NCBI RefSeq assembly: GCF_019972155.1
Contig: NZ_BOVL01000022.1
Span: 124,530 to 188,529, forward strand
Source of the DNA: Bradyrhizobium sp. RD5-C2
Lineage (GTDB): Bacteria; Pseudomonadota; Alphaproteobacteria; Rhizobiales; Xanthobacteraceae
Reading direction: 5' to 3'
DNA: 64,000 nt
The translations under genes were made by a program, and so were the position numbers. Within the stretch, counting starts at the first letter, position 1. Every line of letters starts with the position of its first letter. The notes under the pieces were generated by a model that worked only from the letters and a program-made list of their open reading frames with translations, did not search any database and was not told where the DNA came from. Below, piece after piece: positions 34,106 to 40,574 of the stretch.

Positions 34106-34804
34106 TCACCAGACCATCGGAACCAGGCGGTAACGCACGCGGCCGAGATATTCGGCGTAGCCGTCGAGTTCGGCGGCGAGCATCCGCTCCTCCATCATCG
34201 ACCTCAAGCCGAGCAGCGCCGCCATGACAGGCACGATGCCAAGGCCATACCAGGATCCGAGCAGCAGCGGGGTGCCGACATAGGTCAACAGGCCGCTGGC
34301 ATAGATCGGGTGGCGCACATAGGCGTACGGCCCCGTCGTCACCGCAGCATGCCCGCGCTCGCGCTGGATCTTCACGACCGGGGCGGCGTAGCTGTTTTCG
34401 CGGTAGGTCCGGTAGACGATGTAGAACGAGGCGGCGATCATCACCGCGCCGGTGCACTGCAGCCAGAACGGGACGAAAGATGTCTGGTAGCGCACCGCGT
34501 CGAGCGCCATCAGCGGCAGCCATGTCAGCCACAACAGCGGCATGATCGTCGTGATGACGCGATCCCACCCGGCCTGGCCGCGCGCGGTGCGGCGCTCCGC
34601 CAGCAATCCCGGATCGTGCCTTGCGAGCCATGCCTCCGTGATCAGCCCGCCGATCGTGATCTCGAGCAGGAACATCCAGCCGCCGGCCCATCGCATGGTG
34701 CCGGCCGCAAGAAACAGGAGTGTCCCGAGACCGACGAATGTGCAGGCGGCGCGGCGCAGATTGATGCCAGGGGGATTTCCGTTGGGATTGCCGTTCTGGT
34801 CCAT
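34106..34804 (-). CDS. Isoprenylcysteine carboxyl methyltransferase (ICMT)-like membrane protein
   Basis: 232 aa with about five hydrophobic helices. The C-terminal ICMT/PEMT signature reads GPYAYVRHPIYASGLLTYVGTPLLLGSW, then SMMEERMLAAELDGYAEYLGRVRYRLVP, matching the SAM-binding end of membrane methyltransferases. The substrate in bacteria is usually unknown. It follows the small genes of the PatA/PatG-like locus on the same strand, 99 bases downstream, but an imperfect hairpin at 34823-34858 lies between them. Membership in that locus is therefore uncertain. GGAG upstream of the ATG supports the start. Confidence 0.85.
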   Translation of the reverse strand: MDQNGNPNGNPPGINLRRAACTFVGLGTLLFLAAGTMRWAGGWMFLLEITIGGLITEAWLARHDPGLLAERRTARGQAGWDRVITTIMPLLWLTWLPLMALDAVRYQTSFVPFWLQCTGAVMIAASFYIVYRTYRENSYAAPVVKIQRERGHAAVTTGPYAYVRHPIYASGLLTYVGTPLLLGSWYGLGIVPVMAALLGLRSMMEERMLAAELDGYAEYLGRVRYRLVPMVW

Positions 34805-34903: not shown

Positions 34904-35248
34904 TTACGGTCTGCGGGTCCAGTTTCGTGCCTGTCCGGAATAGACCTTGCTCGGCAACGCGCGGGCTGCGGGATCGAGCAGGATCTTCATCGCGGTATTG
35001 AGCCGCGCCTCCGAATGCGGTGAGCCATCATGGCGCATCTGCTGCGGAGCACCGGGGCCCTGCGGCGGCGCCATGTAGGCCGACGTTGTCGGCGGGGCGG
35101 GCGTGGTGGCGATCTTCGGACGGGCAACAACAGCTGCCTCCAACGGACGCCGCGCGTCGGCAATGCTTGACGCTGCGGATGCTGCTTCCGCCGGCGGCGG
35201 AGAGGAGGCTGTGCTGTCGGATCCGGATTTGCGGGGCGGTCTTGCCAT
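34904..35248 (-). CDS. Pro/Ala/Ser-rich small protein in the PatA/PatG-like locus
   Basis: 114 aa, ATG at 35248 with GGAG about nine bases upstream. The first 75 residues are low-complexity (Ala, Ser, Pro; for example TTPAPPTTSAYMAPPQGPGAP). The last 40 look ordered, with a helix HSEARLNTAMKILLDPAARAL and a basic tail ending NWTRRP. There is no signal peptide, membrane segment or cysteine. It is the third small gene after the subtilase gene, 36 bases after the 59-aa gene. It could be a substrate of the protease, a carrier or leader protein, or an accessory factor. No family recognised. Confidence 0.6.
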   Translation of the reverse strand: MARPPRKSGSDSTASSPPPAEAASAASSIADARRPLEAAVVARPKIATTPAPPTTSAYMAPPQGPGAPQQMRHDGSPHSEARLNTAMKILLDPAARALPSKVYSGQARNWTRRP

Positions 35249-35284
35249 GGCATCGGCTCCATTGGTTCGGTGATGACGACGACG

Positions 35285-35464
35285 TCAGGACTTGTCTTCG
35301 TCGGATGTGGTGCGTTTGGCGATGATCGGGTTGCGGTCGCTGATCGCGGCGAGCAGCGAGGCGTGGGTCACGACTGACGATACGACGATCTTTCCGGAGG
35401 GCTCGATCCGGCGACCGTTCTGCTGCTGTTGCTGCGGGCTCCTGGCGGTGGATTTCTGCATCAT
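35285..35464 (-). CDS. 59-aa peptide, candidate substrate in the PatA/PatG-like locus
   Basis: Minus-strand frame with ATGATG start (35464), preceded by GAGGAGG at ideal spacing, ending TGA at 35285-35287. It has a five-glutamine run (residues 11-15), a central segment PSGKIVVSSVVTHASLLAAIS and an acidic end, RTTSDEDKS. There are no cysteines. It lies 56 bases after the 63-aa gene, with a GC hairpin between, and 36 bases before the 114-aa gene. Nothing in it matches a family I know. The strong ribosome site and same-strand packing are the reasons to call it real. Confidence 0.6.
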   Translation of the reverse strand: MMQKSTARSPQQQQQNGRRIEPSGKIVVSSVVTHASLLAAISDRNPIIAKRTTSDEDKS

Positions 35465-35486
35465 GTCGGCCTCCTCGAGGATGGGT

Positions 35487-35509
35487 GGGGCCCGACAGCG
35501 CCGGGCCCC
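35487..35509 (-). other. GC-rich intercistronic hairpin
   Basis: GGGGCCCG (35487-35494) and CGGGCCCC (35502-35509) form an 8-bp all-GC stem with a 7-nt loop. It lies between the 63-aa and 59-aa genes and before the latter's Shine-Dalgarno site. It is a candidate mRNA stabiliser or partial terminator. Confidence 0.5.
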
Positions 35510-35520
35510 GAGTTTGGCGA

Positions 35521-35712
35521 TCAGATGCCGAAGGCACCGAGGACGCCCGGCAGCGCCTGCACGGCCGTACCGAGGATGTCCTGCCAGCCCTGCGGGTTGA
35601 CCGAACCGTTGGTCGCCACTTCGGCAATCCGCTTCGGACCGCGCTCGATGCCCTCACACTGGATCGGGCTACGCACGCTGCCGAAGGTCTCAAAGTCGTT
35701 CCTTGCGTACAT
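35521..35712 (-). CDS. 63-aa peptide, candidate precursor of the PatA/PatG-like protease
   Basis: ATG at 35712 with AGGAG six bases upstream, the best ribosome site in this locus. Residues 1-42 are polar and charged (leader-like), with a single Cys19. Residues 43-63 form a hydrophobic, helix-prone end starting at Trp43 and finishing ALPGVLGAFGI. This two-part build, with a charged leader and a short hydrophobic C-terminal core, is what RiPP precursors look like. The gene follows the 819-aa PatA/PatG-like protease gene. No classical cyanobactin recognition motif (such as GLEAS or AYDG) is visible, so it would be a new precursor type or a differently used peptide. A small hydrophobic membrane peptide is the alternative. 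Confidence 0.6.
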   Translation of the reverse strand: MYARNDFETFGSVRSPIQCEGIERGPKRIAEVATNGSVNPQGWQDILGTAVQALPGVLGAFGI

Positions 35713-35793
35713 GTTCAGCTCCTTCTTTCGGTTTGAATTGACGGCAACTACGGGAGGTGGGCACCGACCGGGGCAGCCGTCGCTGGACGTCGC

Positions 35794-35825
35794 CCAGGGG
35801 ATCGCTCATCGCGTCGATCCCCTGG
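35794..35825 (-). other. Strong hairpin between protease and peptide genes
   Basis: CCAGGGGATCG (35794-35804) and CGATCCCCTGG (35815-35825) give a perfect 11-bp stem with a 10-nt loop. No T-run follows on the minus strand, so a role as RNA processing or stability element upstream of the 63-aa gene is more likely than full termination. A 14-codon GTG frame with GGAGGAG upstream (35850 to 35806) runs into it. Confidence 0.55.
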
Positions 35826-35886
35826 ACCACGTGACGCTAATTCGCGCCACGTTCTGATCTCCTCCGGACGCAGAGGAGCAATCGCG

Positions 35887-38346
35887 TCAATAGACCTGCC
35901 ACTGCCGCAGCGGTCCGACCGCCACCGGCACCACGTCGCTCACGTCGATCGTGTACTGATAGACTTCGCGCGCCTGGGTCAGGACCTGCGTCGGGTTGAA
36001 GAAGCGGTAGGTCACATCGTGGCAGATCGATTCCGGACGGCAGATCAGACTCTGGTCGACCTCGACGGTGTCGAGCCGCAAGCCCTTCTTGGCGACGTCG
36101 GTGAAGATCTTCCGCGTATTGTAGGCATTCATCGCCGAGTAGTTCAGCGCGCGATCCTGCGGTGAAAGGCCGACGTTGCGGAATTCATTGTAGATCCGCT
36201 CGAGGAAACCCTCGGCGCCGTCCGGCCAGGTGGTGGGGTCGGGCCCGAACAGCGTGTAGAGGTCCCACTGGTAGAAGCCGCGCCAATCGGTCACCAGCGT
36301 CGGAACGACCGTGCCGTTGAGCAGCTTGGTCGTGTTGGTGCTGTCGACCCAGCCGGCCATCGAGACCCGCGCGACGCCGCCGCGCGGCGGGAATGCGGGG
36401 GGTGTGATCGGTCGTGCGTCAGCGCCGGCGGCGGCCGCCGTCGCCAGCACCACGGTGCGTGTCGTCGCGGGATCGTCATGCGAGACTTCCTGATGCCAGA
36501 GCGCCAGGATCAGCGCGGCGAAGAACCCGAGACCGAACACATCGAGCGGCTTGATCGCATAGATCGGGATCGAATCGATCGTCATCGTCCAGGTGATGGC
36601 GTCGGCGTCGGGGAAGTTGTTGCCGGCGCCGGCTGGCGTCGCGGTCTCGCCTTCGGCCTGGTTCAACAGATAGCGCGCCATGATCGCCGGATTGTACGGC
36701 GCCGAGGTATCGCCGGAGTGGTCACGCTCCGGTCCGAACGCCGGATCGCCGCGTCCGATCAGGCTGTCGCGCCAGTTGGCGATCGCCTGCACGAAGTAGT
36801 CGAGGCGGGCTTCCTTGCCGAAATCGTAGAACAGCCGGCCGATCGGGAAGGCGAGTTGACCGGTGGACTCGGCCGTCGCGCCCTGCGGACGCATGCCGCC
36901 GCCACAGCCGCAGTTCTTCTCGCTGGCTCGAACCGCGGGCGCCTCGTACATCGGCAGCGCCTGGGGCATTGCGACGGGAAGCGCATTGCTCGGCATCAGC
37001 GCGTGCAGTTGCTGCGGCTGCAGCCAGGTTTGCGGCATCATGCCGGCTGTCGGCATCGCCATCTGCGGCATCATCATCGGCGGCATCACCATCTGCGGTG
37101 CCGGGGCCGGTATCCAGACCATGTCGCCGCCCGCATGGGGCGCGTGATACGGATAAGGCGCGGGCGCTGCGATCGGTGCGGCGACGACGCCGTGATCAAC
37201 GGGGGCGGCCATGGCCGCAGGTGCCGTCGGCGCGGCGGGTTGCGCCTCGCTTGGCATGATCCCCGCGCTGTTTCGCAGGACCGAGCCGTCCGGCCCGAAT
37301 ATGCGCGGAGCCGATGGTGCAGACATTGCTGATAGATCTCCCATGGAACCCTCTCTGGTTGCAGTTGGCTGAGCGGCGGATGACGGTTGGACGAAAGGGC
37401 GCGCGGACACTCCCCAGAAGCGGGGAGGCGCGGCCGTGGCACCCGACGGCATGACGGCGTCCGCCTGCTCGCCAAGCAGGGCGGCGACAGCCGCGGGAAT
37501 ATCGAGCCGTCCGGCGAGGCAGCGCGAGGCGCTGCCGTCGTTGCGGCAGGGCACCGCGCTCTCGAGCAGCGCGGCACGGACGGCTTGCGGATCGGCCTTG
37601 CGTCCGTTCTGGCGCAGGCATGAGAGCAGCAGCGCGACGACGCCGGTGACGATCGGCGCAGCGTAACTCGTTCCGGAACGCAGGCTGACGTTGCGGACCG
37701 GCGAGGCGCCGGCAATGTTCTCGCCCGGCGCCAGGATGCCGTTCTCGAGATAGGCGTCGCCGAAATTGCTGAACGGCAGCGGGTTGCCGGCCAGATCGCA
37801 CGCGCCGACCGCAAGCACCGAAGCGAGGCTGCCCGGCACCTGGACGCAGCGGCAGCCATCATTGCCGGCGGCGGCGACGATCAGCTTTCCGGCGCGTTCG
37901 CACGCGCGCACCGCGTCGACCAGAATGCGATCGGCCTGTCCCGTCGCGGATTGCTGGCCGCTGCTGATGTTGATGATGTCGGCGCCCACGGCCAGCGCCT
38001 GGTTGATCGCGAGCGCCAATGTGCTTTGCGAGGACGGTTCGATCTGCCCGGCGGCATTCTCGCGATAGATCGAGAACACGGTCGCGCTGCAGTTCGGCGC
38101 GACGCCGAGCACCGGGCTGCCGGGTGTCCCCATCAGCACGCTCGTGACGTGCGTGCCATGCTCGGACTGGATCATCGATGAAGACGGGGCGACGAACTCG
38201 CCGCCCATCGCGACGCGGGCCTGCCTGAGCGAGGGATGATTGAGATCGACGGGGCCGTCGATGATCGCGATCTTCACCGCGGGGTCGCCACCCGACGTTC
38301 TCTGCCACAAGGCAGTCAGACCAGCGATGTCGGCAACTGGATTCAT
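35887..38346 (-). CDS. PatA/PatG-like (cyanobactin maturation-type) subtilase
   Basis: 819 aa from ATG 38346, with GAGG nine bases upstream; an extra 20 residues from 38406 look non-coding. The N-terminal PatA/PatG pattern is clear: IAGLTALWQRTSGGDP then IAIIDGPVDLNHP. The S8 triad is Asp30, His66 (EHGTH) and Ser227 (SGTSYAAP), with oxyanion Asn162. A low-complexity linker (about 300-475) contains a Met/Pro/Gln-rich part and a CGCGGG motif at 479-484. The C-terminal third resembles PatG (QLAFPIGRLFYDFGKEARLD; YRFFNPTQVLTQAREVYQYT; DVSDVVPVAVGPLRQW). In cyanobactins PatA removes the leader and PatG cleaves the follower and macrocyclises. Here no YcaO, dehydrogenase or prenyltransferase is adjacent; three short genes follow and a LuxR gene precedes. 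No signal peptide. Confidence 0.88.
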   Translation of the reverse strand: MNPVADIAGLTALWQRTSGGDPAVKIAIIDGPVDLNHPSLRQARVAMGGEFVAPSSSMIQSEHGTHVTSVLMGTPGSPVLGVAPNCSATVFSIYRENAAGQIEPSSQSTLALAINQALAVGADIINISSGQQSATGQADRILVDAVRACERAGKLIVAAAGNDGCRCVQVPGSLASVLAVGACDLAGNPLPFSNFGDAYLENGILAPGENIAGASPVRNVSLRSGTSYAAPIVTGVVALLLSCLRQNGRKADPQAVRAALLESAVPCRNDGSASRCLAGRLDIPAAVAALLGEQADAVMPSGATAAPPRFWGVSARPFVQPSSAAQPTATREGSMGDLSAMSAPSAPRIFGPDGSVLRNSAGIMPSEAQPAAPTAPAAMAAPVDHGVVAAPIAAPAPYPYHAPHAGGDMVWIPAPAPQMVMPPMMMPQMAMPTAGMMPQTWLQPQQLHALMPSNALPVAMPQALPMYEAPAVRASEKNCGCGGGMRPQGATAESTGQLAFPIGRLFYDFGKEARLDYFVQAIANWRDSLIGRGDPAFGPERDHSGDTSAPYNPAIMARYLLNQAEGETATPAGAGNNFPDADAITWTMTIDSIPIYAIKPLDVFGLGFFAALILALWHQEVSHDDPATTRTVVLATAAAAGADARPITPPAFPPRGGVARVSMAGWVDSTNTTKLLNGTVVPTLVTDWRGFYQWDLYTLFGPDPTTWPDGAEGFLERIYNEFRNVGLSPQDRALNYSAMNAYNTRKIFTDVAKKGLRLDTVEVDQSLICRPESICHDVTYRFFNPTQVLTQAREVYQYTIDVSDVVPVAVGPLRQWQVY

Positions 38347-38698: not shown

Positions 38699-39373
38699 TC
38701 AGTCGAGCTCGCGGCGACGATCGAGAGCCGGCGCGGAGGATGCGAGCCACGGCGCTTCGCGGACCCGCCGCATCGCCTGTGCCCGGCGCGGCAGGCCGAG
38801 CTTTTGCAGCACGTGATGGACGTGATGCTTGACGGTGGCAAGACTGAGATTGAGATCGCGCGCGATCTCCTTGTTCGACATGCCTTGCCCGATGAGCTTG
38901 AGAACCTCGCCTTCGCGGCGCGTCAGGCCCTGGTCCGTCTCGATCGTATCCGTCTGACGCTCCATGCAAAACAGCGCGCGCAGCAAGCCGCCGGAAATCT
39001 CGGCGCTGCAGGCAAGCCGCCCCGACGCCACGTCCGACAGCGCGCGGCAGAGCTCGTCGAAGCTCGCATTCCGGGAGATGTAGCCGCTAAACCCGGCCCG
39101 GCCGCAGCGAACTACGTCGCGCCGGTCCTCGTTGAGGCCGAGCGCCACCAGCGCGATCTCCGCATGCTCGCTCGCAATCACGCGCACCTCGTCGAGATCG
39201 ATGCCCTGTGTGACGTCGATCAGAATGACACTCACACTGTTGGTCTCGAGGGTCGCGCGCAGGCCGGCAAGATCGGCGACCGCCGCCTCGACGGCAAACT
39301 CGGCGTGGTTCTGGAAACTCGAGGTAAGCCCCTCGCTGAACAGCCTGATCGGCGTGACGACCGCGATCCTCAT
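38699..39373 (-). CDS. LuxR-type response regulator, atypical receiver
   Basis: 224 aa. The C-terminal LuxR HTH is complete (LTRREGEVLKLIGQGMSNKEIARDLNLSLATVKHHVHHVLQKLGL). The N-terminal receiver-like domain keeps a possible phospho-acceptor, Asp53 (VILIDVTQG), and the fold, but the acidic pair that normally follows beta-1 (usually DD) is replaced by Thr-Pro (VVTPIRLFSEGL). It may thus be phosphorylation-independent or respond to a ligand. No histidine kinase gene is in the window. It lies on the same strand as, and 352 bases upstream of, the PatA/PatG-like gene, with an array of palindromes between. It probably controls that locus. Confidence 0.87.
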   Translation of the reverse strand: MRIAVVTPIRLFSEGLTSSFQNHAEFAVEAAVADLAGLRATLETNSVSVILIDVTQGIDLDEVRVIASEHAEIALVALGLNEDRRDVVRCGRAGFSGYISRNASFDELCRALSDVASGRLACSAEISGGLLRALFCMERQTDTIETDQGLTRREGEVLKLIGQGMSNKEIARDLNLSLATVKHHVHHVLQKLGLPRRAQAMRRVREAPWLASSAPALDRRRELD

Positions 39374-39812
39374 GATTATCCTCGAAACTCAACGAAATGG
39401 CGGATGAAAAGCCGTCTATAAGTCAACGGCACCGGCATCCAGAAAGTCATGAAGGTAAGTATGCGGTATGCTGCCAGAGGTTGTATTTATTATCAGGTCG
39501 AAATTACGGCCCCGATACGCGCGGGATCAAGAGATACAGTTCACATTCGAACGTCGCGCTGGCAGCACAACGCAGGATACGATGTATCGGATATCGCGGC
39601 AAGGCGGCGACACGCAGCGCGTGCGCACCATGGGGCTGCGGGAAATCTCGCGGTGACTTCAACGCCGTAGTGATCGACGTCTAGATATTTAGATAATTGA
39701 CGCATGCGGGCCCGGGTGCTCTGTACAAGATTGCGTGTTCTTCGGCCGAGTGTGAGCGACGCAATGCCGCGCCTCGGATGTGCTCAATCCAGATGCCAAT
39801 CGACAGGATTCC
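39374..39812. other. AT-richer gap, no confident gene
   Basis: This 439-base region between the divergent regulator and S1 protease genes is visibly less GC-rich (for example TCTAGATATTTAGATAATT near 39682). Three overlapping plus-strand frames are open (39397-39684, 39449-39670, 39468-39656), but none has a good ribosome site or a recognisable family. It may hold promoters or a decayed gene. Confidence 0.35.
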
Positions 39813-40574
39813 ATGACGAGCGTGATTCGAGCGACAGCCTTTCTGACCCTGTTGATGGCAACGCCAGCCTTCGCGATCGTCGGTGGTGGCGCGCCGTCGA
39901 CCGATGGCGTCGCGCGCGCCGTCGTCACCATCGTTGGCTCGCGCGGCAATTTCTGCACCGGCGCGCTGATCGCGCCGAAGGTGGTGCTGACCGCGGCGCA
40001 TTGCGTGCAGCCCGGTGCCGACTACAAGATCGTCGATTATGGGCCGGACCGGCAGCCGAAGCTGCAGGACGTCAAGACGGTTGCGATCCATCCCGGCTTT
40101 CGGATGCAGGCGATGACCAATCATGTCGCGACCGCCGATGTCGCGGTGCTGCAACTCGCGCTACCGGTTGCAGGCAAGGCGCCGGCCGTGCTCGGCATAC
40201 CCGACATTCCGGTCCAGGTCGGCGGCCGCTTCACCATCGCCGGCGTCGGCGTCACGGTGCGCGGCGACGGCAAGAGCGGCGGCAGCATCCGTGTCATCAG
40301 CCTGATTGCGAACGGCAAGCCCGGTACGCTGCAGATCCGTCTGGTCGATCCGGTCGGGCAGGGCGTGCGCGAGGGGCTCGGCGCCTGCACCGGCGATTCC
40401 GGTGCGCCCGTGTTCGAGGACAAGCAAGGCGGGCCCGTCATCGTCGGCGTGGTAAGTTGGTCCACCGGCCCGAACGGCACCGCCGGTTGCGGCGGCATCA
40501 CCGGGGTGACGCCGCTCATGCTTTATCGCGACTGGGTGATGCAGACCGCGCGGCAGTGGGGCGCGAGCTTTTGA
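39813..40574 (+). CDS. Secreted trypsin-like (S1) serine protease
   Basis: 253 aa from ATG 39813. A signal peptide (TSVIRATAFLTLLMATPAFA) is followed directly by IVGGG at 22-26, the usual N-terminus of mature S1 proteases. The triad is His63 (LTAAHCV), Asp109 (TADVAVLQL) and Ser196 (CTGDSGAPV). The disulfide pairing pattern C48-C64 is conserved. There is almost no propeptide, so activation may come with signal cleavage. The target is unknown. It is divergent from the LuxR-type gene and could be co-regulated with the PatA/PatG-like locus, but this is only positional. Confidence 0.9.
   Translation: MTSVIRATAFLTLLMATPAFAIVGGGAPSTDGVARAVVTIVGSRGNFCTGALIAPKVVLTAAHCVQPGADYKIVDYGPDRQPKLQDVKTVAIHPGFRMQAMTNHVATADVAVLQLALPVAGKAPAVLGIPDIPVQVGGRFTIAGVGVTVRGDGKSGGSIRVISLIANGKPGTLQIRLVDPVGQGVREGLGACTGDSGAPVFEDKQGGPVIVGVVSWSTGPNGTAGCGGITGVTPLMLYRDWVMQTARQWGASF

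Follow-up and report, generated by a model that had tools for sequence, protein, structure and literature searches.

Cyanobactins provide the closest described parallel to the locus considered here. The site of PatA is given as G(L/V)E(A/P)S and cyanobactin macrocyclases are presented as tools of cyclic-peptide engineering (PMC10885120), and PatA and PatG share a conserved C-terminal domain that is described as having no known role (PMC4259220). We analyzed a stretch of 64,000 nucleotides (nt) of Bradyrhizobium sp. RD5-C2 (contig NZ_BOVL01000022.1 of GCF_019972155.1, 124,530 to 188,529), hereafter the window, in which a PatA-like S8 protease is accompanied on the same strand by three short open reading frames (ORFs), designated ORF1, ORF2 and ORF3 (Table 1). 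Judging from the sequence, this is probably a minimal cyanobactin-like locus, where one PatA-type protease would free a linear, helical peptide of about 22 amino acids (aa) without YcaO, PatF or PatG. The parts are known; among the matches listed in the open-licence literature there was no account of a YcaO-less PatA system, nor of such parts used alone, with cores that look unmodified, in Bradyrhizobium or other Alphaproteobacteria, in Streptomyces or in cyanobacteria.

The first-pass annotation of this DNA had proposed an 819-aa protein of PatA/PatG type with a PatG-like C-terminal domain, and profile searches bear out both identifications. The protease matches TIGR03895, the PatA/PatG model, with 460.5 bits against a curated cut-off of 421.05, and Pfam finds in it an S8 domain (111.2 bits), PatG_D (29.2 bits against a cut-off of 27) and PatG_C (108.4 bits), while residues 669-817 match the solved PatG domain of unknown function (DUF; 4uvq, 94.9 bits). 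The length of 819 aa follows from an ATG start, the mechanically called ORF beginning 20 codons upstream. Among solved structures the best matches are to PatA (4h6w, 244 bits; 4h6v and 3zxx, 225 bits), as against 162 bits for the PatG macrocyclase structure 4h6x and less for the others. Compared with two PatG-type relatives from the genus (L063 and L064), the window protease does not have the insertion between Asp and His, which we take to be the macrocyclase lid: the spacing from D30 to the column of H66 is 36 in the window protease and 74 in the relatives. Since PatA structures score higher and the spacing is 36 rather than 74, the window protease is, as far as its sequence tells, PatA-like and built for cutting rather than cyclising. 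Like PatA, it combines an S8 domain lacking the PatG insertion with C-terminal PatG_D and PatG_C; unlike PatA, it stands alone without a partner PatG, resides in an alphaproteobacterial host and has a linker of some 200 residues rich in Pro, Ala and Met. A single match to the protease was found in the window genome at E<=0.001, and there is thus no second PatA/PatG protease by that search. Of the catalytic triad proposed earlier (D30, H66, S227), the Asp and Ser stand and the His is better placed elsewhere. H63 and H66 are both invariant in 15 Bradyrhizobium protease sequences; the first His of HGTH is presumably the catalytic one, by analogy with subtilisin. Because three distant relatives have lost H66 (Y, G or Q in that column) yet retain the first His, H63 is more likely to be catalytic than H66; a further relative, L094_2, is unaligned at this point. 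An AlphaFold2 model built with 15 protease orthologues had a mean predicted local distance difference test score of 28.6 and was not used.

ORF1 as a candidate precursor

The three short ORFs noted beside the protease in the first-pass annotation are indeed there, and homologues of all three accompany it at 31 of 31 Bradyrhizobium loci (some strains present twice), although the start of ORF3 is uncertain in L057, L086, L059, L060 and L087. Across the 146 genomes of the same genus, an orthologue of the protease occurs in 14 (identity at least 74% in the genus-wide search), and ORF1, ORF3 and a LuxR-type regulator each occur in these same 14. Carriers include B. pachyrhizi, B. tropiciagri, B. 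viridifuturi, B. embrapense, B. mercantei and B. algeriense. Some match to the protease at E<=0.001 exists in 92 of the 146 genomes, mostly to the S8 part.

In its sequence ORF1 has the make-up of a ribosomal precursor with a leader and a core. Over the 31 loci its first 43 residues are almost unchanging and its last 20 variable, with the break in conservation at SVNPQ/GW. Diversity was scanned in 30-nt steps over the 22 distinct regions that are left once L059, L060 and L087 are set aside, a set called here the elkanii group. The jump from leader to core (Table 1) is framed by values of 0.003-0.121, both in the 300 nt that precede ORF1 and between codon 61 and the end of ORF2. Non-synonymous diversity (pN), calculated from 13 sequences of the elkanii group, is 0.010 in the leader, 0.095 in the core, 0.022 in ORF2 and 0.052 in ORF3, making the core the fastest-changing protein segment among the three ORFs; the corresponding synonymous values (pS) are 0.033, 0.231, 0.145 and 0.188. 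Low pN and pS together mark the leader as unusually frozen, silent sites included, and this, along with the nearly invariant start of ORF1, hints at a constraint on the RNA or at gene conversion. Scans for promoters and terminators at the locus gave nothing above chance.

Among known precursors, PatE (TIGR03678, TIGR04446; 4v1u, 2kya) is the closest. By motif, ORF1 resembles it in an N-terminal segment of the PxQxxxVxR type, which reads PQQGQPVIR in the PatE of the Protein Data Bank, and in a putative recognition site of the G/S-V-x-P/A-x kind ahead of the core. Unlike PatE, ORF1 has no LAELSEE heterocyclase signal and no family-model match, and its core is longer than what we take to be the size of the patellamide core. 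No C-terminal follower such as AYDG is present either, as ORF1 ends with the core at 31 of 31 loci. The predicted core, GWQDILGTAVQALPGVLGAFGI, has no Cys, no Ser and one Thr. ORF1 is the sole match to the leader motif in the 64-kilobase (kb) window, and no second ORF1 was found in the window genome, where the best other match had E=0.198.

Motif-bearing short ORFs beside other proteases

Short ORFs of this kind are not restricted to Bradyrhizobium. A motif ORF was defined by the pattern P.Q..[PGAV][VILQ].R, a ribosome-site-like sequence and a length of at most 160 aa, and was counted as adjacent when on the same strand and within 2 kb of a PatG_C protease. Of 22 loci from Alphaproteobacteria, Streptomyces and cyanobacteria, 19 have such ORFs alongside the protease, with a total of 45 ORFs against 0.29 expected under an order-2 Markov model; elsewhere in these loci (184 kb, or on the other strand) there were three, and 12 loci matching the S8 part only had none in 46 kb. 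The pattern was written after 13 loci had been inspected, and of the nine scanned only afterwards seven have it, the misses being L094 and L116. In the count of 22, L048 stands for the 14 orthologues and the other 13 are left out, as are the 17 Bradyrhizobium loci of a genome-contig scan for protease relatives, a scan that gave 17 close relatives plus a single generic S8 match. Also excluded were L068, whose PatG_C lies in a frame of 438 aa and whose match to the protease is too weak, L117, which is on the plasmid of L116, L118, where PatG_C is partial, and H5, which agrees with H4 in species and record length. The misses L072, L094 and L116 are kept, the last being cut by the start of its plasmid record. 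Up to six motif ORFs accompany one protease at other loci, with unrelated tails that are Cys-rich or helical.

The second motif recurs as well: its strict form is found in 25 of the 45 ORFs (5.4±2.2 in shuffled tails) and its lax form in 44 (19.4±3.0). A fixed cutting rule applied to these 44 yielded 43 distinct cores, 24 with Cys and 19 Cys-free. In every one of the 19 Cys-free cores the hydrophobic moment exceeds the average for shuffled versions of that core (z 0.87-2.48, mean 1.60, combined 6.97), and since several share a locus and are not independent, the means of the eight loci (1.15 to 2.43) should be read beside these values. The window core has a z of 2.02, and 300 random 22-residue segments of the proteases gave a mean z of 0.04. 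Frog-skin temporins are likewise unmodified amphipathic peptides that are short, hydrophobic and helical; the cores described here are similar in those respects and differ in that a cyanobactin-type protease would release them. Some cores encoded on Streptomyces plasmids are temporin-like, e.g., FLPLLGALGSLLF. On these plasmids (L097, L113, L114 and L115) each of the four S8-PatG_C proteases adjoins an annotated BTAD-type regulator and is accompanied by short ORFs that bear the leader motif, four to six per protease.

A profile of 13 ORF1 proteins searched against 2718 ORFs from 15 distant loci ranked four protease-adjacent precursors at the top (E = 3.7e-13, 4e-8, 7.7e-4 and 0.3). L099, from another alphaproteobacterial family (G583), has two ORF1-like peptides, an ORF3 homologue (E=4.8e-9) and a gene of weak similarity to ORF2 (E=0.54), and in a tree of 17 proteins its protease is sister to that of the window with a support of 1.000. 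Two cyanobactin-type clusters from the same genus, L063 (G094) and L064 (G062), resemble the window locus in having a PatA-type protease and motif-bearing short ORFs, and one peptide of L063 matches PatE (E=6.5e-7). In contrast to the window locus, both clusters also encode a SagD/YcaO protein that has a TOMM leader-binding domain and, besides the PatA-type protease, one of PatG type (fused to SagB in L063), and their precursors hold LAELSEE or LSELSEE. At the C-terminus of the L064 precursor stands CAYSGSAE, which is close to the AYDG signal. A cyanobactin peptidase gene is also mentioned for Roseomonas oryzae in one paper (PMC8776678).

Domain PF18065 is sparse, in 6 of 198 genomes of the family, 2 of 385 of the class and 2 of 398 of the phylum (own genome counted), and in 1 of 17 in the family of G583. 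No phage record covers 80% of the protease, and the phage matches listed (5 of 36 records) are to the S8 part only. We tentatively raise the possibility, somewhat less probable than its opposite, of a one-enzyme family in Pseudomonadota, Actinomycetota and Cyanobacteriota with a cyanobactin leader (PxQxxPVxR, then GVxPS) and unmodified amphipathic or Cys-rich cores, of which classical cyanobactins would be the branch that added YcaO and PatG, with the DUF as the reader of motif 1. The locus also points to small peptides of soil bacteria, plant symbionts included, that seem to have been overlooked and that searches keyed to YcaO would miss.

Predicted peptide release and the alternatives

From the computed linkage, domain identity, leader/core contrast, motifs and amphipathicity we infer the cleavage, its exact site, the role of the DUF and the function as follows. 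ORF1 would be the precursor, with a 41-residue leader carrying motifs 1 and 2 followed by a hydrophobic, amphipathic core of 22 residues without a follower. The PatA-like S8 domain would cut after SVNPQ to yield linear GWQDILGTAVQALPGVLGAFGI, with the PatG_D/PatG_C domain of the protease probably assisting in holding the precursor. The DUF may read motif 1, because the two are common to the window locus and to the YcaO-bearing clusters. Steps of YcaO, prenyltransferase and macrocyclase type are not expected; the adjoining ICMT-like enzyme may methylate the C-terminus. Expression is probably under the control of the LuxR-type regulator, ORF2 and ORF3 would be accessory, and the mature peptide is probably membrane-active and directed at competing bacteria. 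As protease, DUF and precursor stand here without the other enzymes, the role of the DUF becomes directly testable.

Several observations weigh against this interpretation. ORF1 matches no NCBIfam cyanobactin precursor model (E up to 10), and a profile of 27 distant precursors without L099 misses it (E=0.36, rank 5 of 727 window ORFs); when the two L099 peptides are added, ORF1 ranks first (5.9e-5, next 0.064), and the link of ORF1 to the distant precursors, drawn from sequence similarity, is thus one through an intermediate locus. Three of the 22 PatG_C loci are without motif ORFs. Diversity of 0.19-0.33 is also seen within ORF3, in the stretch that follows ORF3 and in the methyltransferase gene; the diversity of the core is therefore not unique and is high only relative to its own leader. 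Positive selection on the core was considered and not borne out (ratio of non-synonymous to synonymous substitution, dN/dS, 0.16). With a charge of -1, the window core is not a classic cationic peptide. In one of the 14 genomes (L061, G118) the protease matches in two overlapping pieces in different frames and the regulator only in part. No exporter or immunity gene was identified, neither having been searched for by profile. Finally, one study by nuclear magnetic resonance reports that PatE' was not bound by the PatG DUF (PMC4259220), which speaks against a role of the domain in holding the leader.

The first-pass annotation had left open whether the locus cuts or cyclises its own peptides. 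Cutting of ORF1 is the best reading of the sequence, and it is favored over cyclising because the PatG-type Asp-His insertion and an ORF1 follower are both absent; ORF2 and ORF3 are not precursor-like. A transamidase that cuts ORF1 and joins the ends into a head-to-tail cyclic peptide would accord with the grouping of PatA and PatG among transamidating subtilases in one source (PMC9549277); the same two absences and the better fit to PatA structures make it improbable. The released peptide might instead be modified further. Candidates are the ICMT-like methyltransferase, whose orthologue accompanies the protease in all 14 genomes, and an unlinked TOMM cyclodehydratase encoded on contig C8, a SagD/YcaO protein that has a TOMM leader-binding domain. 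Such modification is unlikely, as a core with one Thr and neither Cys nor Ser offers little to heterocyclise and a search of 15 distant loci did not find the methyltransferase.

It is also conceivable that ORF1, rather than being the precursor of a product, works together with the protease, for instance as inhibitor, as chaperone or as a propeptide that has become detached. ORF1 is in fact more conserved than the protease in L059 and L060, the most divergent of the 14 (87-89% vs. 71% identity), where the regulator reaches 71%, the methyltransferase 70-73%, ORF2 56-61%, ORF3 57-64%, the trypsin-like gene 77% and a HAD gene beyond the module 91%. Against this stand the tail of ORF1, which evolves about ten times faster than its leader at the protein level (elkanii group), and the presence at other loci of up to six such ORFs per protease with unrelated tails, and we regard this explanation as a weak contender. 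If a cyanobactin cluster had been acquired horizontally and were now decaying, this would account for the lack of YcaO and of a second PatA/PatG protease at the locus and for the split protease in G118; with dN/dS of 0.11-0.25 for ORF1-3 and an unchanged set of genes in all 14 genomes, we consider decay very improbable. Release of a linear peptide by the PatA-like protease remains the reading that we prefer.

Neighbouring genes and minor observations

Table 1. Positions of the features discussed, in window coordinates unless another locus or contig is named
Feature	Position	Strand	Basis or remark
PatA-like S8 protease, 819 aa	35887..38346	-	S8 ~5-295 (D30, H63, S227); Pro/Ala/Met-rich linker; PatG_D 500-634; PatG_C 711-816
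ORF1, candidate precursor, 63 aa	35521..35712	-	same 14/146 genomes as protease; conserved leader, variable core; relatives beside other PatG_C proteases
ORF1 leader, codons 1-41	35590..35712	-	diversity 0.003-0.044 per 30 nt over codons 1-40 (22 distinct regions)
Leader motif 1, P16-R24 (PIQCEGIER)	35641..35667	-	counterpart of PQQGQPVIR in PatE
Leader motif 2, S37-Q41 (SVNPQ)	35590..35604	-	resembles PatA recognition sequence; predicted cleavage after Q41
Predicted core GWQDILGTAVQALPGVLGAFGI, 22 aa	35524..35589	-	diversity 0.20-0.26 over codons 41-60; hydrophobic moment above shuffles
Start of ORF1 (60 nt) with the 30 nt directly upstream	35653-35742	-	nearly invariant, diversity 0.003-0.012
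ORF2, 59 aa, conserved putative accessory protein	35285..35464	-	31/31 loci; syntenic in 14/14
ORF3, 114 aa, Pro/Ala-rich N-terminus, conserved YSGQxRxW C-terminus	34904..35248	-	same 14/146 genomes; L099 homologue
NarL/LuxR-type response regulator, upstream of protease	38699..39373	-	E<=1e-40 in same 14/146 genomes
ICMT/PEMT-type membrane methyltransferase, possible module member	34106..34804	-	close orthologue (>=72%) in same 14 genomes
Trypsin-like protease, divergent neighbour	39780..40574	+	Pfam; syntenic in 14/14 loci
Unlinked TOMM cyclodehydratase (SagD + TIGR03882), window genome	G000:C8:62777-63757 (L073:343-2595)		
Cyanobactin-type cluster, G094	L063:3957-13259		
Cyanobactin-type cluster, G062	L064:5333-14049		
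PatB of Gloeothece verrucosa	L094:10577-10792		begins MRLPKLAPPVKR, variant of precursor leader motif

ORF2 and ORF3 look like accessory proteins from their sequences: the leader motif was looked for in both and is absent, and Pfam and NCBIfam searches with ORF2 gave no match. The idea that all three short ORFs are precursors was rejected, since motif and core occur in ORF1 alone. The NarL/LuxR-type regulator is likely to govern the module; similar regulators lie near the proteases of L062, L063 and L096. Members of the methyltransferase family are found in 119 of the 146 genomes, and the 105 beyond the 14 reach at most 54% identity; the family was therefore rejected as module-specific, the close orthologue being confined to the 14. 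In agreement with the first-pass annotation, no YcaO was found among the seven neighbourhood proteins scanned with Pfam, and the only one matched in the genome is encoded on a different contig. No PatF-type prenyltransferase was found among these seven, the profile search having extended to them only. As a minor observation on another cyanobactin protein, the PatB model is weakly matched over its initial 12 positions by two of the distant precursors, and PatB may be read by the same domain.

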